Positions 1-64,000 of a DNA stretch of 64,000 nucleotides are shown one piece after another. The stretch comes from Neovahlkampfia damariscottae (taxonomy: Eukaryota > Heterolobosea > Selenaionea > Neovahlkampfiida > Neovahlkampfiidae): positions 32,997 to 96,996 of the forward strand of contig JABLTG010000065.1 of NCBI GenBank assembly GCA_016618085.1. The letters run 5' to 3'. The notes under the pieces are model-generated. The model ran no database searches. It saw nothing but the letters and a program-made list of their open reading frames with translations, and was not told the origin of the DNA. The translations under genes and the position numbers were made by a program. Every line of letters starts with the position of its first letter. Position 1 is the first letter of the stretch.

Positions 1-2394
1 TGTTGTATTCAATAAATTTCCATCCAAATCAACAGGTTTACTGATGAAGACAAGTTCATTTGGATAATAAACAAATGTGTATGCATTTATTTTTTTCTTT
101 GGTGAATCCCATTCCCAAAGCATTTCCATTTCAACACAACAACATTCTCTTTGAATTCCTTCTTTTAATGAATATGAAATAAACTTTGATTTTGTAATAT
201 TTGTGTCAATTGTATTCATTTTGTTTAAATTCAAATATCCATTCGCAACTTGTTGAAGTTCAAATGGTAAAATGATTTCAAATTGATAAGAATTAACAGA
301 ATCTTTGATGAATGACAATTTTGAGAACCAATTGACTGAAGAAACTGAAATTTTCATTTCATCAGTTGTATGAATAGAATCCCATGAATTTGAGTTATCT
401 GATATTGCTTGAGCAAAATTCAAATCTTTTGAATCAAGTATTGAATTTTTGAAATCATCATTATTATAAGAAGACAAGAGACCTAAAATTGGAGACATAA
501 CAATGACATCATGTTGGTATTTTGCTAAAATTTCTTGAACTTCATCTATTTGAACGAATCGCTTAAATGAATCCAATTGATGTTCCAACTTTACATCTTG
601 ATAAATTTTGTTGAAATATTTGAATGTTGGATAATTTTTAATTCTATTTGATAAACAATCTTTCAAATCTTCAATTTTATCTTTTGAAAGACAAAGATCT
701 TTTGATGATTTTGGTTCAATATATGTTTTCAAAATTTCTTCAACTTTTTTATTTTCCTTTTCGAATTGTGATTTTTCGTTCAATTTCTTTAAGACTAAAT
801 ATTCAGAAATGAAATCCCAAGAATCAGTATTATGTTGAGATTTCAAAAATTTGATGTATGCATCTTTAATCTCTTTCTTTTTTAATGAAGAAAAATGAAC
901 AACATAATTTGAAAGTTGAAATACTTTTTTTCTTTTTTCCATTTTTTGTTGATATTGTTCATCTAATCCATCAATATCCAAGTCCCAAATTAACTTTCCA
1001 AATGGTTGTACAGGAAGACCTTCCCATAACTCATTGAATTCAAATTTCATATCAGCAATTCTTCTTGGAGTTTTTGAATATTCTTTTGAAATTGAATTAT
1101 GCAGTCCATTGACAATAATGTCTAAAGCCCAATATTTAGTTTTTCTTTTGATATCATAAGTGATACACATATCAAACATGGTTGTATTTTTATCAATATA
1201 AGTCAGTTTTGTTGTTCCAATATAGAACATTGGGATTGCTTTCAATTTCTTTTCAGTTTTATCTTTTTGTCTCAATGGAACTTGTTGAGTTTTGAGGAAC
1301 TCACATCCTGGAAAATTTGAACATTTGGTATAAAGTGTTAATTGTTTCTTTTCTGGGTCATAAATGAATTTAATTAGATTTCTAGCGACTCTTCTTTGAT
1401 AAAGTGGATATGGTAATTTTGATTGGCCTTGAGCAAACAAAAAGTCTCCAAATTTGAAATCTAAGGTGATAAATTCATTGTAAGCCGTATTATGATGATT
1501 TTGAAAAACAGCAATACAAGCTTCTTGAAATGGTTGATTCAATTTGATTTGATATTTTACATTCAGAGTATCTGACGTTAAAAAAGTTAAATTTGGAAAA
1601 TAATTCATTTTAGAGACAAATATTTTGGATTGTTTTTTCTTGTGTTCTGAGATTAATTTCCAATTTGGGTTGTCATTGAAGAATTCGTCCATGAAATGAA
1701 AATCTTTTTCTTCAAAATTTAACTTTTCAAAATCTTCATCTTTGTAATTATAAAGAGCAGTAAGTCTAGGAAGTAGAACATCTCTGTTGTGTTGATGTTT
1801 TTCAAGCAACTATTTCGGAAAATTAATGGAGAGTCCAGGTGTTTTTACCTTTAAACATTCTTCTGTTCTTGTGTATCGTTTGTATGAATCATTTTTATAT
1901 TCTACAAGTACAGCTTTGTAAAAAGGTGCCAAAATATCTGTTGGTGATTCTTCAAGTGTCCACTCATCTTGGTTTAGGTTTTTTATTTTTTCCAAAAAAT
2001 GCTGTTTTTCTTCAGTCAAGATTCCAAGTTCATTTGGTGATTTTGGGGCGAGATAAGTGTTTACAATATTGTTGAATTCTTTTTTCAACTGTTTTTGATC
2101 CTTTTTTTTGATGAGTTGTTCTAAATTCTTCACACTTAAGACAAATAAAAAGTTTTCAAGATTGTGCTCTTTTTTGAGGAATTCTATGAAGCTGTTTGTG
2201 ATTTCAGGCACTTCTAGTATACTTTGAAACTGAATGATTGAATCACCAACGTGAAAAACTTTTTCTTCAGACATGTCCGTTAACCAAAGATCCGTTGTGA
2301 TTTGACAATAATAGCCAATGAAAATCAATTCACTGCCAAATTTAGAAATATGAAAAATTTCTGAAATTCGAGAAAAATGTACCTCCTTATTCAT
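1..2394 (-). CDS. Tandem RGS / START-like domain protein (3' end beyond window)
   Basis: Two exons joined by a 39-nt GT-AG intron at 1810-1848 (reading through it gives a false stop). Exon 2 is open to base 1, so the protein is at least 784 residues and incomplete at its C-terminus. Residues about 50-180 and 486-599 look like RGS (regulator of G-protein signalling) helices, for example 'IEFLKKEHNLENFLFVLSV' and 'IKFLKSQHNTDSWDFISEY'. Each is followed by a beta-rich stretch (about 231-431 and 659-784) resembling START-type lipid-binding folds. The RGS call follows known family patterns; the START-like call is inference. A decayed copy of this gene lies at 54752-55315. No CCAAT box is visible just upstream of the ATG at 2394. 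Confidence 0.7.
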
Positions 2395-20721: not shown

Positions 20722-21466
20722 ATGTCTTGGTTATTTGGTGGAAAAAAAAAAGAATCAACTGAGGAATCCATGCAAAAAATGAACGATACAGTGGATTTAC
20801 TCAGAAAGCGTGAAGCCCTTTTATTAAAAAAAATGGAAAAAGAACAAGAACAAGCAAAAGTTCATATGAAAAAAGGTATTCATTAAAAAATAAAAATTAA
20901 CCAATTTTTAAAAAGGAAATAAAACAGCTGCTCTTCTCTGTTTAAAACGTAAAAAACAATACGAAGATGAAGTTATGAAATTGAATGGACAAATTTCGAA
21001 TTTAGATTCTATGCAAATTAAACTTGATAGAGCTGTTCTTGATATGGAAACTTTAAAAGCACAACAAACAGCAGCTAATGCTATGCAAGATATTTTCAAA
21101 AAAACGTAACTTTTTTTTTTGTATTGACCAAAACATTTTAGCAACGTAGATAAAGTAGATAATATTATGGACAAAATTCGAGATACAATGGATGATGCTG
21201 ATGATATTTCAAATGCTATTTCTCAACCTCTTGGAATGGATTTAGTTGATGAAGGTGCTCTTGAAGATGAATTAGAAGCTTTAGAAAATGAAATGCTCAA
21301 AGATGAACATGAAGTCAATATTCCAAAAACTGAACTTCCTAAAGTTTCTACATCAACAACAACAACAAATGATAGAGTTATGGTTGGTGTTGGTGGTGGA
21401 GGTGGAGGTTCAAATAAAAATGAAGATGATGAACTGGCAAGACTTCAAGCTGAACTTGGTTTATAA
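20722..21466 (+). CDS. SNF7: ESCRT-III core subunit Snf7/Vps32/CHMP4, copy 1
   Basis: Three exons with introns of 41 and 37 nt. MSWLFGGKKK... leads into basic helix 1 ('DLLRKREALLLKKMEKEQ') and 'GNKTAALLCLKRKKQYE', hallmarks of CHMP4. The acidic C-terminal part has 'LDELEALENEML'-like sequence (here 'EDELEALENEMLKDE') and the final helix 'DELARLQAELGL' (MIM-type). A poly-Gly linker is encoded near 21400. Acts in membrane scission at endosomes, the plasma membrane and the nuclear envelope. CCAAT at 20676-20680. A second, very similar gene follows immediately. Confidence 0.95.
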
Positions 21467-21607
21467 AAAATAAATCTAAATAATAATTTTGTGATATACC
21501 AAAGTGTAAAAAAAAAATAATTTTTTTCTGTGTGAATTTAATCGTTAAATTTTTTGTCCAATGATATTGTAATAGTGCTCAAGTAGAGAAAAGTGAACCA
21601 AGGAGTG

Positions 21608-22337
21608 ATGAGTTGGTTTAAAAAGAAAGAATCACCAGATCAATCCATTCAGAAAATGAATGATACAAGTGATTTATTGAGAAAACGTCAAGATTTGTTA
21701 ATCAAAAAAATGGACAGAGAACAAGAACAAGCAAAAGTTCACATGAAAAAAGGTATTATTTTTATTTTTCAATTTATAAAAAATAAAGGGAATAAAACAG
21801 CTGCTCTTCTTTGTTTAAAACGTAAAAAACAATATGAAGATGAAATAACAAAATTGAATGGTCAAATTTCGAATTTAGATTCTATGCAAATTAAACTTGA
21901 TAGAGCTGTTCTTGATATGGAAACTTTAAAAGCACAACAAACAGCAGCTAATGCTATGAAAGATCTTTTTAAAAAAACGTAAAAAATTTTTTATTTTTTT
22001 TGAGTCTTTTCAAAGGAATGTTGATAAAGTAGATGACATTATGGATAATATTCGAGATACAATGGATGATGCTGAAGTTATTTCTGAAGCTATTTCTCAA
22101 CCTCTTGGAATGGATTTAGTTGATGAAGGTGCTCTTGAAGATGAATTAGAAGCTTTAGAAAATGAAATGCTTGAAGATTCAAATTTAGTTGATATTCCAA
22201 AAAATCAACTTCCTACTTCCAAAGAATCAATTTCAAATTCAAATCAAAAAGTTTTAGTTGGAGCAGGAGGTGGTTCTTCAAAAAATTCTGAAAAAGATGA
22301 TGAAATGGCTAGATTAGAAGCAGAACTTGGATTATAA
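21608..22337 (+). CDS. SNF7: ESCRT-III core subunit Snf7/Vps32/CHMP4, copy 2
   Basis: The start is the ATG at 21608 (MSWFKKKESPDQS). Intron positions are identical to copy 1. The first intron happens to be in frame and free of stops, so read-through would add 12 residues inside 'KKG|NKTAA'. Exon 2 is almost identical to copy 1 at the DNA level, for example the stretch encoding 'LDSMQIKLDRAVLDMETLKA'. The C-terminal tails have diverged. A recent tandem duplication or gene conversion is likely. CCAAT at 21558-21562. Confidence 0.95.
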
Positions 22338-33158: not shown

Positions 33159-33380
33159 ATGTCAAACAAGTATTTTGGACCAAAACAAATATCAACAGCA
33201 GATTTCATCTTACACTATGTTACAAGTATAAAATTTAATCATATTCATAGAATTTTAATTATTGAGCTGGTATCCATAATTTTGCTCACTTTATTGGTTT
33301 TGTTTGTTTGGAAACATTTTAGAAGAGTCATTGATGAAGTCACAAAAAAAAAGAAAAAAAATTTAAAAAAGGGTGGTTAA
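33159..33380 (+). CDS. Small single-pass membrane protein
   Basis: 73 codons without intron. MSNKYFGPKQIST... leads to a hydrophobic helix 'ILIIELVSIILLTLLVLFVW' and a Lys-rich end. It is divergent from pescadillo with 92 bases between the start codons. The A-rich 3' end of this frame lies antisense to the poly-T terminator of the small RNA at 33371-33481. No homologue recognised; it res­embles tail-type or SMIM-like small membrane proteins only in size. Confidence 0.5.
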   Translation: MSNKYFGPKQISTADFILHYVTSIKFNHIHRILIIELVSIILLTLLVLFVWKHFRRVIDEVTKKKKKNLKKGG

Positions 33381-33481
33381 GAAACCTAAGGAAACATCAC
33401 AGAGTCTAGAACTACCGAAGTAGAACCAGACCCCATAATCATATAATCAATGGAAAGAAGGAAGGTTTCTTGAAAGCCCTT
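33371..33481 (-). ncRNA. Structured small RNA, copy 1 (two-member family)
   Basis: About 110 nt on the minus strand, homologous to 55447-55550. The 5' end is AAGGGCTTTC and the 3' end is CCACCC followed by T6 (33365-33370), a typical RNA polymerase III stop. The ends pair (AAGAAACCT with AGGTTTCTT). A central hairpin is capped by a cUUCGg tetraloop (CTACTTCGGTAG). Upstream, TTCCAAAATT at 33536-33545 lies at about -64 to -55 and an AT-rich TAAAATAA box at about -30; both positions are shared with copy 2. It is not a tRNA, 5S, U6 or other RNA that I recognise. Confidence 0.65.
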
Positions 33482-33535
33482 GAAAACCAAATAACCAACG
33501 AACTTATTTTACTTCAAATAAACTAAAAAAAAAAT

Positions 33536-33545
33536 AATTTTGGAA
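33536..33545 (-). promoter_or_regulatory. Upstream promoter element of small RNA copy 1
   Basis: TTCCAAAATT on the minus strand, 55-64 bases before the presumed RNA start. The identical decamer occurs at the same distance before copy 2 (55382-55391). With the TATA-like box at about -30, the layout resembles type 3 (U6-like) polymerase III promoters. Confidence 0.5.
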
Positions 33546-38803: not shown

Positions 38804-41698
38804 TTATTTTTTTAATAATGGATTGACATCATCTTCATCTGAATCAGATTCATCTCTTCTTTCAAAGCATGAAAACCATGATTTTCCATTCAATTTCTTA
38901 ATTTCTTTCTTTTGTCTTTTGATATGATCTTCCAATGATTGAATTTTCGCTTGAAATTCACCACCTTCATCTTTTAAACTAACTTCTTTCATACTGCCAT
39001 CAACAGAAACTTCTTGTGTAACTTTAGATTCCTTCAATTCATTTTCTAATTCATCAATCTTTTTTGAAAGAATATCATTGGTCAATATTAAATCTGAATT
39101 CTTTTTTGATTCATCTTCAAATTGTTTTTGAACTTGTTTCAAATTTTCATTTTCATTTTGTAAATCTTTGATCATTTGTTTGAATGAATTAATTTCAATA
39201 TTTTTGACTTCCATTTCTTTCTTTAAACTTTCTTCGCCTGAGTTTGAACTTTGTTTTACTGATTCAATTTGTTGTTTAAATGATTCAATTTCTTTTTCAT
39301 GAGTTGATTTCAAAGTTGCAATTGATTGGTTCAATGAATCAATTTGTTTAACTTGTTTTGATAATGATTTAATTTCTTTGTTTTTTGATTTGATTTCAGT
39401 ATCAAATTGTTGTTTATTTGAATCTAATTCTTGTTTTAATTTTTCAATTTTTTCATTCCCTTCTTGTTGATTTGATTTTTCTTTTTCTTCAATTTTTGTT
39501 TTTAAATCTTCAATTTCTTTTTGTTTTTCTTCCATTTTTCCATTAAATTCTTCAAGTTTTGTCTTTAAATTATTTGTTTCATTTGATTCTTTATCTTTTA
39601 ATTCATTCAAATTTCCTTCTAAAGATTCAATTTCTTTTTTTTTTGATTCAACTTCTTGTTGTAAATTTTTGATTTGTTGTTTCGATGATTCAGTTTCTTG
39701 TTTTAAATTTTCTTCTTTTTCTGTCATTTCTTGTTTCAATTTTTGTATTTTTTCATCTGCTTGTTGTTGTGTTGATGTTTCATTTTCTTTGATTTGATTT
39801 TTTAAATCTTCAACTTCTTTTTGTTTAGATTCAATTTTTTCATTGAATTCTTTCTCAATTGATAATTTTAATTCACCAATTTGTTTTTCAAATTCTTGTT
39901 GTTTTGTTGATAATTCAACTTTTAATTGGTCAATAATTTCATTGGTTTCTTTTTTTGAGTTTTTAACATTTTCCATTTGAACTTTTAAATCATCTATTTC
40001 TGCTTGTTTTACTTCTACTTGTGACGCAGCTTTTGATTTTTCTGTTTCAATTTCAACTTTGAATTCATCTTTTAACTTTTCAATTTCTCCTTTTGAAGTT
40101 TCCAACTCAGATGTAGCTGAAAGAACATTTTCTTTTGTTTCTTTTAATTCAGTTTCTATTAATTTCAATGAATCAATTTCTTGTTGTTTTTGTTCAACTT
40201 CTTTTTCTTTTTCTGTTAATTTTGAAGACAAATTTGAAACTTGAGCAGATTCATTTTCTTGTAAATCTTTTAACTTTTGTTCAGTTTCTTTTTGTAACTC
40301 TTCAAATGATCTATTTTTTTCTTCAAGATTTTTTGTTAACATTTCAAGTTGTTCTTGTGTTTGTGAAACATCATTTTTCAATTTTGAATTTTCTTCATTT
40401 AAACTATTAATTTGTTCAATTTTAGTATTTAAATCATCTCCAATTTGTTTTAATTCTTCAATTTTTTTTGTTTTTAAATCTTCAATTTCTTTTTGTTTTT
40501 CTTCCATTTTTCCATTAAATTCTTCAAGTTTTGTCTTTAAATTATTTGTTTCATTTGATTCTTTATCTTTTAATTCATTCAAATTTCCTTCTAAAGATTC
40601 AATTTCTTTTTTTTTTGATTCAACTTCTTGTTGTAAATTTTTGATTTGTTCNNNNNNNNNNNNNNNNNNNNNNNNNNNNNNNNNNNNNNNNNNNNNNNNN
40701 NNNNNNNNNNNNNNNNNNNNNNNNNNNNNNNNNNNNNNNNNNNNNNNNCTTCAAGTTTTGTCTTTAAATTATTTGTTTCATTTGATTCTTTATCTTTTAA
40801 TTCATTCAAATTTCCTTCTAAAGATTCAATTTCTTTTTTTTTTGATTCAACTTCTTGTTGTAAATTTTTGATTTGTTCAATTTTAGAATTTTCAAATTCT
40901 TTTTTTTCTTCATTCTGTTTATCTAAAGTATCTTGTTTTTGTTTTAATTCATTTTTTGATGATTCAATTTGTTTTTTTAAGTCTTCTTGTTCTTTAATTA
41001 ATTTTTCATTTTCTTCTGCTAATTCATCATTTTCTTTAATTTCGTCATCCAATTCTTGTTTTAATGATTCAAATTCTTTTAATTTTTCTGTTTTTTCATC
41101 AATTTCTTTTTTTTTTGTTTCAATTTCTTTTTCTAAATTTTCTACTTTTTCATTGACAGATGTCAAACTCTCTGCTGTTTTTTTATGTTCAGAAATTTCA
41201 TTTTTTAAAATTTCAATTTCTTCATGTTTTACTTTTAAAACTTCTTCAGATTTAGTTTTTAATTCATCTTCTTTTGTTTGAAACTCTTTTTTTAATTTTT
41301 CTAATTCTTCTGTTTTTGTTGATAATTTGGAATTTAAACCATCAGTTTTTTCTTTTAATTCAGATTCTAATAAAGTAAATGATTCAATTTTTTCTTTTAA
41401 ATCTTCTTCAATTTGTTTGATTTTTTCATCTTTTTCCTTTACTTCATTTTCTAAAACATGTTCGTGTTGTTTTTGTAAATTTTCTTTTTCTTGTCTTAAT
41501 AAATTGATTTCTTCTGATTTTTTTTCATGCTCTTTTTCAAAGTTATCATTTTTTTCTTCTTTCTCTTTTATGATTTTATTTAAATTTTCAATTTCAGTTT
41601 CAAGTTTCGCAATTTGTTCAGCGTCTTGATTTGTTTCAACCTTTTAAAAAAGTATTAGAGTTTAAAAAAAACCTCACTTTGCTTTCTTCTTCACTCAT
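38804..41698 (-). CDS. Long repetitive coiled-coil protein (contains assembly gap)
   Basis: Exon 1 (MSEEESK) starts at 41698 with CCAAT at 41716-41720. A 34-nt intron beginning GTGAGG leads to VETNQDAEQIAKLETEIENL and then about 920 residues of uninterrupted heptad-type Glu/Lys/Gln/Leu coiled coil. It ends in a Trp/Cys- and Asp-rich tail ('SWFSCFERRDESDSDEDD'). A 60-residue module (starting 'KNLQQEVESKKKEIESLEG') occurs at least three times at near-identical DNA level. An N-gap (40652-40748) falls in the repeat. The gap length as written breaks the frame; its true length must be 2 modulo 3. Probably a golgin/tether or cytoskeletal linker by architecture only. Confidence 0.8.
39498..39678 (-). 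repeat. Coiled-coil DNA repeat, copy 1
   Basis: A 181-bp stretch that recurs 972 bp away at 40470-40650 with, as far as can be seen by eye, no or almost no differences. It encodes the module that includes 'NLNELKDKESNETNNLKTKL'. Confidence 0.85.
40470..40650 (-). repeat. Coiled-coil DNA repeat, copy 2
   Basis: Second copy of the 181-bp module, abutting the N-gap at 40652. Confidence 0.85.
40652..40748. other. Assembly gap (97 N)
   Basis: A run of N between repeat copies 2 and 3. The assembler most likely failed on near-identical repeats, so more copies may be missing. Confidence 0.99.
40749..40877 (-). repeat. Coiled-coil DNA repeat, copy 3 (partial, cut by gap)
   Basis: 129 bp matching 40522-40650, i.e. 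the part of the module left visible beyond the gap. The offset from copy 2 is 227 bp if the gap size were right. Confidence 0.8.
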
Positions 41699-54751: not shown

Positions 54752-55315
54752 ATGAATCGAAATATCATAGCAATTTTAAATTTTTATTCATCAGAAGTAT
54801 CTTTCCAACAAAAAATCAATTTGTTTATCCATCATCTCTCGACATTTAGTGATGTTTCTAAGAATTCACTTTACATTTTTTAAATATGCAAATGAATATT
54901 TTTTACATATTTGTGAAGAATTTAGAACGAATCATCAAAAAGATAATCAAAAACAGTTAATCAAAGAATTAAACAATATTCTAAACACTTATTGCCCCAA
55001 AATCACCAAAAGAACTTGAAATCTTGACTGAAGAAAAACAGTATTTTTTGAAAAAATAAAAAACCAAAAACAAGATGAGTGAAGAATCACCAACAGATAT
55101 TTTGGCCTTTTTACAAAGCTGTACTTGGAGAATATAAAAATGATTCATACAAACGTTACACAAGAACAGAAGATTGTTTAAGGTGGACTCCATTAATTTT
55201 CCGAAATAGTTGACTTACACCAAGTTGTGAGTTCATCAAATCTCAACAAGTTCCATTGAGACAAAAAGATAAAACTGAAAAGAAATTGAAAGCAATCCCA
55301 ATGTTCTGGAAACAA
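54752..55315 (+). pseudogene. Decayed RGS/START-like gene (relative of the gene at 1-2394)
   Basis: Starts with its own ATG and CCAAT-bearing upstream region and can be followed in shifting frames: 'LIKELNNILNTY' (gene 1: 'LKKEFNNIVNTY'), 'ILTEEKQYFLEKIKN' (gene 1: 'ILTEEKQHFLEKIKN') and 'EESPTDILA'. Several frameshifts and stops interrupt it. Near 55180-55210 it retains most of the intron of gene 1 (CTCCATTAATTTTCCGAAAT is almost unchanged). It then jumps over about 500 bp to the stretch matching 'QQVPLRQKDKTEKKLKAIPM'. A DNA-level duplication followed by deletion, not a retrocopy. Confidence 0.85.
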
Positions 55316-55381: not shown

Positions 55382-55423
55382 TTCCAAAATTTTTTTTTTT
55401 TTTTTTTGATGTGAAGTATAAAG
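55382..55423 (+). promoter_or_regulatory. U6-like promoter of small RNA copy 2
   Basis: TTCCAAAATT at 55382-55391 (about -65 to -56) is followed by a T-tract and TATAAAG at 55417-55423 (about -30). Both are spaced as in copy 1 at 33504-33545. The arrangement is that of a distal/proximal element plus TATA box, as in polymerase III type 3 genes. Confidence 0.5.
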
Positions 55424-55446
55424 AGAAAGTTGTTTGTTCATCTTTC

Positions 55447-55550
55447 AAGGGCTTTCGAGACACCTTCCTTGTTACATTGTTTATGGGGGCTGGATCTACT
55501 TCGGTAGTTCCAGCCTCTGTGAGGTTTCTCCCTAGGTTTCTCATCCACCC
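55447..55550 (+). ncRNA. Structured small RNA, copy 2 (two-member family)
   Basis: About 104 nt, AAGGGCTTTC to CCACCC, followed by T8 (55551-55558). The central hairpin GGCTGGATCTAC-TTCG-GTAGTTCCAGCC has 11 pairs and one U-U mismatch under a cUUCGg loop. Compared with copy 1, a G-C pair in this stem becomes U-A, and the first pair of the closing helix (GAGACACCT with AGGTTTCTC) changes from G-C to A-U. Such paired changes indicate selection on RNA structure. The loop sequence and T-run fix the transcribed strand. Not recognised as any standard RNA. Confidence 0.7.
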
Positions 55551-55558
55551 TTTTTTTT
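55551..55558 (+). terminator. Poly-T RNA polymerase III terminator
   Basis: Eight T directly after the CCACCC end of the small RNA; the other copy has the same arrangement with six T. Confidence 0.55.
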
Positions 55559-59957: not shown

Positions 59958-62942
59958 ATGAAGTTTTTGGTGTTACTCCTCTGCTTGTTCTCTCTCACAT
60001 TCGCTTTAAAATGTGAAAGACCATTACCAGAAGCTGGGAAATGTAAATGCCCAGCAACTGTTAAACAAGTTTGCACTCAAAGTGGAAAAACTTACATTAA
60101 TGCTTGTGTTGCTAAATGTTTCAAAGAAACTGTTCTCTATCAAGGATCATGTAATAACGCTTGCACTTTTAAACACTCACGTTCAAGAAAATGTAATTTC
60201 CAAAAATATGGAAAATACGGAATCAGAAAATATTGTTGTACTCATGACAAAGTTTGCTCTGGAAAACAATGTGAAAGAACAAATTACAAATGTGCATTTA
60301 GTGGTTTAATTATTAGAAAATTCCCAAAAATGCATTGTAAATGGGTGAAAACAGGAACAAACGAAGAAATTAGAAAATGTTGTGGATGGAAGAAAGTTTG
60401 TAAAGGAAAATTTTGCAAAAATACAAAAACTTTCTGTAAAACACTTGGAAAACCAGTACAAATTAAATCAACAATTGGTTGTCATTTTGCAAGAGCACCT
60501 GGTTGTTCAAATGGTGTAAGACAAAAATGTTGTACAAGAAAACATCGTTGTCATGGAAAGAAATGTAAAGTTGTTCATAAACATTGTCATTATCAAGGAC
60601 CTGTTATCAGATACAAAAAAAGATATACTTGTAGATGGTTAAAAATGGGTAGAAGAGGTAAAAGACAAAGATGTTGTGCAAGTACATATAAATGTCAAAA
60701 TCACAATTGTAAACTTATTAAAAGAAATTGTAACTGGAGTGGATGGACTGTAATTAGAAAAACAATTCGTAGATGTTCATACAGAAAATACGGAAAAGGT
60801 TCAAGAAAAAGATGTTGTGTCTGGAAAATTAAATGTTTCAATGGAAAATGTACAACTGTTTCAAAGAAATGTAAATGGGGTGGACATGTTCATTATGTTA
60901 AAACAAGAGTTAAATGTTTTTTCAAAAAAGTATCAAAAGGTAAAAGACAAAGACATTGTTGTACTTCAACATTCAAATGTTCAAATGGTTGTAGACAAAT
61001 TTCAAGAGTTTGTAAACCATCTGGTCCAATTGTTACAGTTCAAAGAAAAACTAAATGTAAACTTGTTCCATCAAGAAGAAATAATGGATATCGTAAAAAA
61101 TGTTGTTCATGGAAAAATATTTGTAATGGATTAAAATGTAAAAAAAAACATAAAAAATGCAGATATGTTGGTGGTTTAATTACAAAGAAAACAATTGTTC
61201 ATTGTAGAAGAAAAGTTATTGCTCAAAACAAACTTAGAAAAATTATTTGCAAAAAATATTGTTGTTCATTTAAAATAACTTGTCATGGAAAGAAATGCAG
61301 AAAATCAAAAAGAAAATGTAAATGTGTTTCAGGTCATAAAACAATTTATAAAAAACATTATTGTCATATTAGACGTAAAAAGAATAAATCACAAAAATAT
61401 TGTTGTACTCATGATCAAGTTTGTTATAAAGGAAAATGCAAAAAACAAAAAAAGAAATGTCATCCAGTTGGATTTGTTACAACAATTAAACACTTCAAAA
61501 AATGTCATTGGATTAAAAAGAAAAATTATAAACAAAAAGTTTGTTGTACATGGACAAGAACATGTAATGGTTCAAAATGTCACAAATCAAAAAAAGTTTG
61601 TAAAAAAGTTGGAAAATATTCAGTTATTCTCAATAGACATAAATGTCAAATTTTGAAATATCCAGGACAAAAATATCCATCAAAAAGAAAACAATGTTGT
61701 TATTGGAAAGAACAATGCATTGGTTCAAAATGTCATCAAAAAGGATCAAAAATTTGTAAATGGTCAGGACCAATTTATCATAAACAATTTAAATTTATTA
61801 ATAAATATAAAAAATGTGGATCAGATAAAAAAGGAAGAAGATTATTTCAATGTAAACAAAAGACAATTTGTTTAAGACAACCAAAAGAATCAAAATGTGA
61901 TCCAAAAACTGAAGTTTGTCACATTTGTAGATCACAACCACTTTCATGTGTACCAAAAGGAGAATGTCTTTCAGTTTATAGAAAAGTTAAAATTACACTT
62001 AAACTTAAAAGACCAAATGTTCATCAAAAATGGAAATGTGTTTGGAAAAATATTTGTAAAGGACATATTTGCAAAAAATCAAATAAAAAATGTATGTGGT
62101 TTGGACCTGAAATTGAAAAAGTTACAAAGAAAAAATGTAAAACTTTATATTTCCAAGGTGGAGCTGAAAGAAAACAATGTTGTACAAGAGTTAAATTATG
62201 TAATCTTGAAACACTTTTCTGTAAAAAAGTTAGTAAAAAATGTCATTTTGTAGGACCAACAATCTTCCACAAAATTATCAAAGTTTGTAAAATTGTTCAT
62301 GATCATGTTAGATCTTATGGAAATAGAGTTTTTAAAAAAAGAAAATGTTGTAGAATTCATAAAAGATGTGTTGAAGGAAATTGCGTTTTAATCTCAAAGA
62401 AATGTAGAACAAAAGGTTCAATTACAAAAGTAACTCATAACAAAAAATGTGAATGGAAATTTGTTAAAAAACCAAATTCAACTGCTACAACAAAACAAAG
62501 ATGTTGTACTTATTGGACAAATATTTGTAGTGGTAAAAGATGTCAACAACATGATAGAAAAACAAGATGTCATGGACCAAAAGTTAAAGTTACAAAAACA
62601 CAAAAATGTCACATGAAATTCTTTGGAGAATCATCAAAAAGAGAATATTGTTGTACAAGAAATACAGTTTGTAATGGAAAGAAATGTCATACATTCTTAT
62701 CTGGATGTGTTTGGAAAGGAAAACCAATTCCATGCGTCAAAGGCAATCTTATTTACAGATGGAGAAAAGTTTGTAGACCAGTCACAGTTGGACCAAATCA
62801 AATTAAAACAAAATGTTGTGATGTTCGTCAAAAATGTGAACAAATTACAAATTATTACATTTGTAGAAGAATTAAAACTGGAAAATGTTGGATTCAAGGT
62901 GAAAAATCAGAAGAACCTGCTCCAAGTCCAACAGTTCAATAA
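59958..62942 (+). CDS. Giant secreted Cys/Lys-rich repeat protein with N-terminal Kazal-like domain
   Basis: Single exon, about 994 residues from the ATG at 59958. Signal peptide MKFLVLLLCLFSLTFA. Residues about 17-60 fit a Kazal-type fold ('CKCPATVKQVCTQSGKTYIN', 'ACVAKC'). Then about 18 degenerate repeats of roughly 50 residues follow, each with a CC doublet and a near-invariant order: RKCC-x5-C-xGKxC-x4-KxC-xxxG-x10-C. Examples: 'KKCCSWKNICNGLKCKKKHK' and 'EYCCTRNTVCNGKKCHTFLS'. Two units have a single Cys in place of CC. The protein is strongly basic (Lys/Arg) and disulphide-rich. No catalytic motif. It could be a matrix, adhesion or antimicrobial-type secreted protein; only secretion and the repeat are certain. 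Confidence 0.9.
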   Translation: MKFLVLLLCLFSLTFALKCERPLPEAGKCKCPATVKQVCTQSGKTYINACVAKCFKETVLYQGSCNNACTFKHSRSRKCNFQKYGKYGIRKYCCTHDKVCSGKQCERTNYKCAFSGLIIRKFPKMHCKWVKTGTNEEIRKCCGWKKVCKGKFCKNTKTFCKTLGKPVQIKSTIGCHFARAPGCSNGVRQKCCTRKHRCHGKKCKVVHKHCHYQGPVIRYKKRYTCRWLKMGRRGKRQRCCASTYKCQNHNCKLIKRNCNWSGWTVIRKTIRRCSYRKYGKGSRKRCCVWKIKCFNGKCTTVSKKCKWGGHVHYVKTRVKCFFKKVSKGKRQRHCCTSTFKCSNGCRQISRVCKPSGPIVTVQRKTKCKLVPSRRNNGYRKKCCSWKNICNGLKCKKKHKKCRYVGGLITKKTIVHCRRKVIAQNKLRKIICKKYCCSFKITCHGKKCRKSKRKCKCVSGHKTIYKKHYCHIRRKKNKSQKYCCTHDQVCYKGKCKKQKKKCHPVGFVTTIKHFKKCHWIKKKNYKQKVCCTWTRTCNGSKCHKSKKVCKKVGKYSVILNRHKCQILKYPGQKYPSKRKQCCYWKEQCIGSKCHQKGSKICKWSGPIYHKQFKFINKYKKCGSDKKGRRLFQCKQKTICLRQPKESKCDPKTEVCHICRSQPLSCVPKGECLSVYRKVKITLKLKRPNVHQKWKCVWKNICKGHICKKSNKKCMWFGPEIEKVTKKKCKTLYFQGGAERKQCCTRVKLCNLETLFCKKVSKKCHFVGPTIFHKIIKVCKIVHDHVRSYGNRVFKKRKCCRIHKRCVEGNCVLISKKCRTKGSITKVTHNKKCEWKFVKKPNSTATTKQRCCTYWTNICSGKRCQQHDRKTRCHGPKVKVTKTQKCHMKFFGESSKREYCCTRNTVCNGKKCHTFLSGCVWKGKPIPCVKGNLIYRWRKVCRPVTVGPNQIKTKCCDVRQKCEQITNYYICRRIKTGKCWIQGEKSEEPAPSPTVQ

Positions 62943-62994: not shown

Positions 62995-64000
62995 TTAAAA
63001 CTGACTTTTCCGTTCATTCTGATTAATCAGACCAGACATTAAAATCAAGGTTTCTTTCGGGATAGGACCGCCAGCAGTACTGGCAGTTTTTGGATTTCCA
63101 ATAAAATTTTGTATATTCATCAGAAATATATTTCTTGCTCCATTATAATCTCTTGGAAGAGAAAAATTACAATATTTACAATTGAAATAATCTTTTTTTC
63201 CAAGTTTCCAATCTATTTTTCCACATGATCCACATGTACAACTGGTATAATGTTCTGAAACTTCATGTACTTGAACAGAATCTTTTTGAGCAAGATGTTT
63301 TAGTGTTTGACAAAATTGAAAATGAGACCAATGAAGCATTTTTCTCACTGTTGTACTATGAATTTTTCTTTCCCATTTTTTAATCATTCCTTTGACTGGA
63401 AATTTTGAAATCAAAATTTCATCATTATTTTCACAAAGATCTTTGGAAATACTTTTATGAAATGCTTCTTTCAATCCTTGAATTCGGTTTTGATATTTTT
63501 GATATTTTTTCTTCAATTTATATCTTTTTTTTTTTAATTTTTTTATTTCTTCTTTTGACATTTTATCATTAGACTTATTTTTATCAATCTCAGATTGAAT
63601 TTTATCACATTCCAACGCATTTTTAAATAATTTTGAAACATCACCTTTTCCATATTCCGCAAATTTTCCAAAGTTATCAAATCCTGTTTGAAATGTTCTC
63701 ACTCCAGGATCAAGTGCAATAATTTTTTTCTCTTTTTTATCTTTTTTCTTAATTTTTGCAACAAATGGAATAATCATATAATATCTTCCATATTGATATT
63801 TTAAAATACAAGTTCTATCACTTGATTCTTTACCAACTACATTAGATAATCTTTTAATTTCTCTTTTTTGAGAAGTTTTTAATGCTCCAAGTTTATAAGA
63901 TGGCCAAAAGAAAAATCCTTCTTCATTCCATTTAATACTTGGTTTACCACCATTGACTGGTATTCCAACACTTTGAGACATTTTTTCATTTCTTTTTTTC
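62995..64000 (-). CDS. Fanzor / eukaryotic TnpB-like RNA-guided nuclease (5' part beyond window)
   Basis: The frame is still open at the right edge; the first ATG seen is at 63981 but the N-terminal part expected for the family is missing, so the gene is 5'-partial. Numbered from that ATG: RuvC-I Asp91 in 'IIALDPGVRTFQTG'; Glu243 in 'SEHYTSCTC', at the position of the relocated Glu of many Fanzors; zinc finger Cys250/253 and Cys268/271; and RuvC-III Asp278 in 'PRDYNGARNI'. 'ILISKFPVKGM' and 'MLHWSHFQFCQTL' are also family-typical. The catalytic set is intact, so the protein may be active. The stop lies 52 bases from that of the Cys-rich gene. No terminal repeats are visible. Confidence 0.85.
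   Translation of the reverse strand, partial: KKRNEKMSQSVGIPVNGGKPSIKWNEEGFFFWPSYKLGALKTSQKREIKRLSNVVGKESSDRTCILKYQYGRYYMIIPFVAKIKKKDKKEKKIIALDPGVRTFQTGFDNFGKFAEYGKGDVSKLFKNALECDKIQSEIDKNKSNDKMSKEEIKKLKKKRYKLKKKYQKYQNRIQGLKEAFHKSISKDLCENNDEILISKFPVKGMIKKWERKIHSTTVRKMLHWSHFQFCQTLKHLAQKDSVQVHEVSEHYTSCTCGSCGKIDWKLGKKDYFNCKYCNFSLPRDYNGARNIFLMNIQNFIGNPKTASTAGGPIPKETLILMSGLINQNERKSQF

Follow-up and report, generated by a model that had tools for sequence, protein, structure and literature searches.

Among the kinds of RNA considered here, the dictyostelid Class I RNAs (Rfam family RF01414) share the whole plan of the genes described below and are their closest known kind. According to one report, Class I RNAs occur in Dictyostelia alone and may have contributed to the multicellularity of these organisms (PMC7919456). 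As that report describes them, they are abundant, developmentally regulated RNAs of 42-65 nt in D. discoideum, bound by Rnp1A, in which a stem of about 6 bp is accompanied by an 11-nt motif beside its 5' strand, with U3, C6, C9, A10 and A11 near-invariant, and in which the 3' end reads CUGU (PMC7919456). Their genes carry the DUSE element about 60 nt upstream, an element also present at spliceosomal RNA genes, and many of them are followed by a T-run, a suggested Pol III terminator (PMC7919456). The search range of that paper comprised other amoebae, representatives of Archaeplastida and Opisthokonta, and Myxococcus; its main text names neither Naegleria nor Acrasis, and Heterolobosea appear there in a reference title only. 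Is this plan, then, confined to the social amoebae? Among the literature matches listed in the present work none reports such RNAs in Heterolobosea, which is not proof of their absence in print.

The window analysed here, meaning the whole stretch of 64,000 nt (C269:32997-96996, in an assembly of 20,439,759 bases (20.4 Mb) and 307 contigs), comes from Neovahlkampfia damariscottae, a host that, unlike those of Class I RNAs, belongs to Heterolobosea and not to Amoebozoa. A single protein, thin evidence in itself, places it likewise: the cyclase-associated protein encoded on C282, identical (100%) to a EukProt entry, has Acrasis kona as its first named hit (41% identity), and in a tree of 30 from at least 120 listed proteins it groups with Acrasis, Naegleria and Willaertia (90/87 support, under the starred level of the tool) and apart from the amoebozoan Mayorella. 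Topoisomerase II, also searched, yielded no informative named relative. Judged by sequence comparison and by analogy, two loci in it are probably genes of a Pol III-type RNA family of at least 12 members, whose products would be regulatory RNPs of a Class I-like kind.

A first-pass annotation had picked out these two loci as look-alikes, and BLAST bears this out: the 55k and 33k copies (copies 1 and 2 in Table 1) are 80% identical, and a BLAST of the whole assembly at E<=0.001 returns these two alone. Their similarity spans -73 to +116 and then ends, and about 800 bases of flank on each side show no more of it (E<=1e-6). The decamer that the annotation had placed at about -65 to -55 starts at -65 (55382) and -64 (33545), and both the AT box that it reported at -30 and the T-run that it reported straight after CCACCC are in place, the latter with 8 T in the 55k copy and 6 T in the 33k copy. 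Both copies fold better than any of 200 dinucleotide shuffles (z -4.49 for the 55k copy and -4.27 for the 33k copy; 0/200 as good). Where at least two compensatory pairs between the copies had been claimed, 3 of 32 pairs prove to have changed on both sides, namely A-U/G-C at the outer end of the 9-bp helix and G-C/U-A plus A-U/U-G in the hairpin, and one pair is broken (C.U in the 55k copy). In this two-copy comparison 98% of cells are paired, against 37-58% in slid controls, and 56/500 shuffles score as high, a control that is weak because there are only two rows.

Table 1. Predicted features of the two RNA gene copies in the window (positions of the window; upstream distances relative to the RNA start)
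Feature	Position	Strand	Basis
Upstream promoter element TTCCAAAATT, PSE/USE-like, -65	55382..55391	+	motif scan
TATA-like box TATAAA, -30	55417..55422	+	read in sequence
RNA gene copy 1, 106 nt without the U tail	55447..55552	+	both ends inferred
Copy 1 helix P1, 5' strand AAGGG	55447..55451	+	pairs with 55548-55552
Copy 1 5x5 internal loop, 5' side CUUUC	55452..55456	+	same in 11/12 genes
Copy 1 helix P2, 5' strand, 9 bp, one C.U mismatch	55457..55465	+	family covariation
Copy 1 invariant motif CUUCCUU, first two bases within P2	55464..55470	+	alignments, 12/12
Copy 1 central hairpin with cUUCGg cap; UUCG 55500-55503	55480..55523	+	fold; 2 compensatory pairs versus copy 2
Copy 1 helix P2, 3' strand	55534..55542	+	family geometry
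Copy 1 5x5 internal loop, 3' side	55543..55547	+	family geometry
Copy 1 helix P1, 3' strand CCCUU	55548..55552	+	family geometry
Copy 1 T-run, presumed Pol III terminator	55551..55558	+	read in sequence
Upstream promoter element TTCCAAAATT, -64	33536..33545	-	motif scan
AT-rich box TAAAAT, -30	33506..33511	-	read in sequence
RNA gene copy 2, 113 nt without the U tail	33369..33481	-	both ends inferred
Copy 2 helix P1, 5' strand	33477..33481	-	family geometry
Copy 2 helix P2, 5' strand	33463..33471	-	family geometry
Copy 2 invariant motif CUUCCUU	33458..33464	-	alignments
Copy 2 central cUUCGg hairpin	33396..33439	-	fold; comparison with copy 1
Copy 2 helix P2, 3' strand	33379..33387	-	family geometry
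Copy 2 helix P1, 3' strand	33369..33373	-	family geometry
Copy 2 T-run, presumed Pol III terminator	33365..33370	-	read in sequence

Ten further genes elsewhere in the assembly are the decisive evidence for a family, and contradict the possibility, raised in the first pass, that no further conserved copies exist. Three sites match a 28-base pattern drawn from the 5' boxes when as many as 3 mismatches are tolerated, the two window copies and C282:8723 (reversed control 0), and an exact-box pattern, AAGGGCN{7,13}CCTTCC, composed once C282 was known, finds the same three (control 0). A covariance model built from the two window copies alone (R1) recovers the unseen C282 gene at 47.3 bits (E 7.7e-9 in 191,401 bases); this gene folds to the same figure (z -4.18), and BLAST with it as the query returns only itself. 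A looser pattern, which leaves P2 and everything 3' of the motif free, matches 23 sites (reversed control 10), and the complete geometry is present in 12 genes: the window pair, C282, C285:150528 and the eight genes of a GAAGG subfamily (C31, two on C44, C76, C241, two on C256, C295). They are dispersed in the assembly and 70-113 nt long; most of them are close paralogues, eight falling in the one subfamily, and their number is a lower bound because the whole-genome search used patterns and BLAST only.

A mechanical check of pairs separates the 21 sites outside the window into 10 with at least 12/14 pairs plus a T-run and 11 with at most 10/14, the window copies themselves having 13 and 14 of 14; the check is permissive, because G-U pairs count and because T-runs and T-rich flanks are common. 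For the C285 and C241 genes a second 3' site scores equal to the chosen one, which lies beside the conserved T-run. When R1 was run on 20 loci, 7/9 family genes were matched (28.7-35.7 bits; C31 and C241 are missed at E<=10) and 0/11 others. A second model, R2, built from all 12 genes, gives its members 56-91 bits, as expected for its own training set, and the next best place 19.9 bits (E 0.16, in 299,543 bases from 70 sources). Both window copies also draw a weak R1 match on their opposite strands (24.3 and 15.4 bits), as expected because the hairpin is near-palindromic. Sites on C293 and C302 were rejected as members, being without the geometry, and C293 has no model match. Searches with one exact pattern each in viral and prokaryotic genome contigs gave 0 matches.

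The alignments show one common predicted fold kept by compensatory changes. In all 12 genes a 5-bp helix P1, a 5x5 internal loop and the nine positions of helix P2 are followed by CUUCCUU, a variable middle of 25-68 nt, the 3' strand of P2, 5 nt, the 3' strand of P1 and a T-run, the last taking the form CTTTTT in C285. The 5' boxes (AAGGGC-like and CUUCCUU) owe part of their invariance to the search pattern, which held them with up to 3 mismatches, whereas the looser pattern picked out its members with no reference to 3' strands, T-run or promoter. In the core alignment of 47 columns and 10 distinct rows, 92.9% of 140 cells are paired, and 9/14 pairs are doubly changed, against a shuffle mean of 5.3 (0/500 as high) and against 39-64% paired cells and 1-4 doubly changed pairs in slid controls; P1 has A-U/G-C double changes at 2/5 pairs, and 7/9 pairs of P2 have changed on both sides. 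Given no structure as input, RNAalifold draws 13/14 of these pairs, 8 of them with double changes. Further pair types, one of five measures, do not exceed the shuffles (82/500 as high), P2 position 7 is unpaired in 6/10 distinct rows, and the independent changes are fewer than the counts because changes are inherited within subfamilies.

With 12 genes, one geometry and this degree of covariation, the structured RNA family with covarying stems that the first pass had proposed is strongly supported, in an amended shape. The pairing of its closing helix stands, but the single helix gives way to two, one of 5 bp and one of 9 bp, with a 5x5 internal loop between them; its central cUUCGg hairpin, which the two window copies share with C282, is missing from the remaining nine genes and so is not a family feature. 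A separate observation concerns the 5' strand of P1 (AAGG or GAAGG), which is complementary to part of the CUUCCUUC motif (55447-55471, 33457-33481), so that pairing in a switch or in a dimer would be possible.

The upstream element, generalised from the family genes themselves as WWCCHHWAWW, starts at -64 to -67 in 12/12 genes, whereas at 40,000 random positions the rate of a start is 0.9% in -70 to -63 and 2.2% in -75 to -56. The same element lies at -68/-69 in three of four U2 genes (two of them with common flanks), one being without the strict motif, and, ahead of the one SRP RNA match, at -64. A matrix made from four U2/SRP sites gives p 0.03-0.21 per family gene, values so modest that spacing and recurrence weigh more than any single site. 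From -90 to -50 the motif is absent in 7/7 5S genes, which in other eukaryotes use internal control regions. Because it is shared with U2 and SRP, the element suggests a PSE/USE-type upstream promoter. The plant USE is likewise a PSE element of the snRNA/SRP type, and the likeness to such promoters (Dictyostelium DUSE among them) lies in a WWCC(C/A)-like element about 64-69 nt upstream, whereas the variants seen here, AACCTTAATT and TTCCAAAATT, set the family apart, as does a -30 box that was read in the two window copies only. Together, upstream element and T-run suggest Pol III, and transcription would then run from an external type-3-like promoter and end in the T-run. The 'U6-like' promoter named in the first pass gains indirect support from the kindred element before U2 and SRP RNA genes and from its absence before 5S genes, but the U6 gene itself was not located, either by family (48/3700 candidates scored) or by pattern. 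The family also indicates that in this lineage U2, SRP and the RNAs described here make use of kindred upstream elements.

Three further points were noted around these promoters. A box, GAA.YTTCAA, was seen by eye near -80 in 9/12 family genes. Three U2 genes (L036, L037 and L038) share a downstream AATAATAAAATTC block, possibly an snRNA 3' box, which was not seen by eye after the family RNA genes. The fourth U2-like gene, on C10, is diverged (60 bits).

Could these genes encode a universal RNA, such as Y RNA, vault RNA, telomerase RNA or RNase MRP, that has diverged beyond the reach of the models? The predicted RNAs resemble Y and vault RNAs in size, in the pairing of their two ends and in the Pol III-type layout of their genes, and universal RNAs of this type diverge fast in protists. 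Y RNAs and nematode stem-bulge RNAs are about 100 nt long, with paired ends, an interrupted stem, a pyrimidine-rich loop and a Pol III type-3 promoter, features that the family RNAs parallel in their size, their interrupted paired-end stem, their pyrimidine-rich loop and their putative type-3-like promoter. Against this, Ro60/TROVE (PF05731) is unmatched in the genome at E<=0.001 (the control matched in 1/14 genomes), which makes a Y RNP unlikely, and no Rfam family matches the family RNAs at its cut-off. The weaker hits fall far below: at E<=10 the 55k copy draws two microRNA hits (E 0.47 and 3.6; 15-17 bits versus cut-offs of 72-74) and the 33k copy none. Vault RNA is a short Pol III RNA with internal A/B boxes, from which the external upstream element of the family RNAs differs. 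Within Discoba it is known from trypanosomes, according to one report (PMC12547018). Twelve genes with different middles are, moreover, a misfit for a single telomerase or MRP RNA, and on balance a diverged universal RNA is an unlikely identity.

Several other identities were tried and rejected. The window scan with Rfam gives nothing at gathering scores, neither Rfam nor ARAGORN matches a tRNA or snRNA family there, and the two copies, as the first pass had stated, match no tRNA, U6, 5S or SRP RNA in either program. A spliced leader RNA, considered because of the linkage to 5S genes described below, was dismissed on inspection by eye, which showed neither a donor nor an Sm-like site. A TnpB/Fanzor-like gene lies at 62995-63981 (-) of the window (Pfam Cas12f1-like_TNB and OrfB_IS605), and a 97% identical piece lies at the opposite end of this contig (L044:3-352). 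A role as its guide RNA was rejected: that protein is unmatched on C282, which has a family gene, and neither in the window nor in L044 does a family hit lie next to the TnpB-like pieces.

The surroundings of the genes bear on the possibility of a SINE/MITE-like or hitchhiking repeat, that is, a short Pol III unit without cellular function, carried along with 5S genes when DNA was copied. Near-identical subfamily units do occur in differing surroundings (C31 and C241 are 95% identical over 501 nt, from -408 to +90, 5S gene included), and 7/8 GAAGG genes have a 5S rRNA gene about 80-290 nt away on the same strand, upstream or downstream. Yet no 5S gene turned up in the scanned surroundings of the four AAGGG genes, and only 12 copies, a lower bound, were found in 20.4 Mb. 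The promoter, furthermore, lies outside the transcript, so that RNA-based copying would lose it, and is nevertheless present in every gene, while compensatory changes in most of the pairs point to selection on the RNA. The first pass had named the end of a known repeat transposon as the reading that would displace its own; with the promoter outside the transcript and compensatory changes in the helices, an origin in a mobile element is improbable.

The 5S genes beside the GAAGG RNA genes all score 102.4 bits (L082-L087), and 5S gene and small RNA give the appearance of a dispersed unit. A block conserved between C44a and C256a resembles a piece of a coding gene and has no Rfam hit. In the window the 55k copy lies 3' of a degenerate gene fragment, 54901-55307 (+), itself a degenerate inverted partial copy of 1224-2145 (-) (83-96% complementary in four blocks), which ends about 75 nt before the promoter of that copy. 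The 33k copy lies upstream of a Pescadillo gene on the same strand (domain match; gene start by eye), and the C282 gene starts about 65 nt past an open reading frame. Stop-to-stop frames of at least 80 codons overlap 5/8 GAAGG genes and the 55k copy, an overlap that we take as chance. Elsewhere the window holds a tandem duplication (20743-22215, period about 875 nt, 83-93% identical) and a gene for a long, cysteine-rich and internally repetitive protein of 994 aa (59958-62942, +).

How far, then, does the resemblance to Class I go? On the published description, both are multi-gene sets of short RNAs with a motif by the 5' strand, a variable middle, an AAG start and a T-run, and in both a helix joins the 5' and 3' ends and carries compensatory changes (here in 9/14 pairs among 10 distinct cores). 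The upstream elements are alike in position and layout. Unlike the Class I stem of about 6 bp, the stem here has two parts, 5 + 9 bp around a 5x5 loop, and the RNAs measure 70-113 nt versus 42-65 nt in D. discoideum. Set against the near-invariant Class I positions in the best register, the motif has U3 and C6 in 12/12 genes and C9 in 11/12, but A10 in 1/12 and A11 in 5/12, so that 11/12 genes agree at three of five positions and mostly not at the last two; the C282 motif, CCUUCCUUCAA, fits all five. In place of CUGU, 12/12 predicted ends read CCCUU or CCUUC plus the T-run. RF01414, assumed to be present in the library, is not among the cmscan hits at E<=10 for three genes and at E<=3 for the other nine. 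Since A10/A11 and the CUGU end fail and RF01414 is unhit, the family is not filed as Class I.

That these RNAs and Class I RNAs are nonetheless true homologues, descended from one ancient RNA class of an early eukaryote ancestor, would account for the shared plan and promoter spacing, the T-run, the AAG at the 5' end and the multi-gene organisation, and for the full fit of the C282 motif; with the mismatches at A10 and A11, the different predicted 3' ends, the two-part stem in place of a single one of 6 bp, and RF01414 missing even from the weak Rfam hits, common descent is unlikely. Chance resemblance in AT-rich DNA, for which one might cite the low-complexity surroundings, the unspecific promoter-only pattern (77 matches, reversed control 11) and the 11 non-members that also match the loose 5' pattern, can be set aside as extremely improbable given the 5'-box patterns (3 matches versus 0 in the control), the model E value for the unseen C282 copy and the covariation.

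The likeliest reading thus remains that of a family of Class I-like RNAs, which probably work as Class I RNAs do, as a multi-gene set of regulatory RNPs. On this reading, Pol III would transcribe the family genes from their external type-3-like promoter and stop at the T-run; the constant end of the product, consisting of the double helix and the pyrimidine motif, might bind a common protein partner, for which an RRM-type precedent exists, or might alternatively pair with purine-rich (AAGGAAG-like) targets, and the variable middle would lend each RNA its own specificity, the whole assembly being a regulatory RNP.

The family matches no catalogued RNA family, and its plan, as read from sequence, has so far been reported from social amoebae. 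In a heterolobosean protist a Class I-like plan would point to one of two histories, convergence on the combination of paired ends with an exposed motif, a variable middle and a PSE promoter, or an RNA class of far greater age, and the 12-member alignment and covariance model can now be used on other Discoba genomes. If common descent were true, Class I RNAs could no longer be seen as a novelty that came with multicellular life in social amoebae; they would represent an older RNP of amoeboid protists, missed because Discoba genomes had not been searched with a family-specific model.
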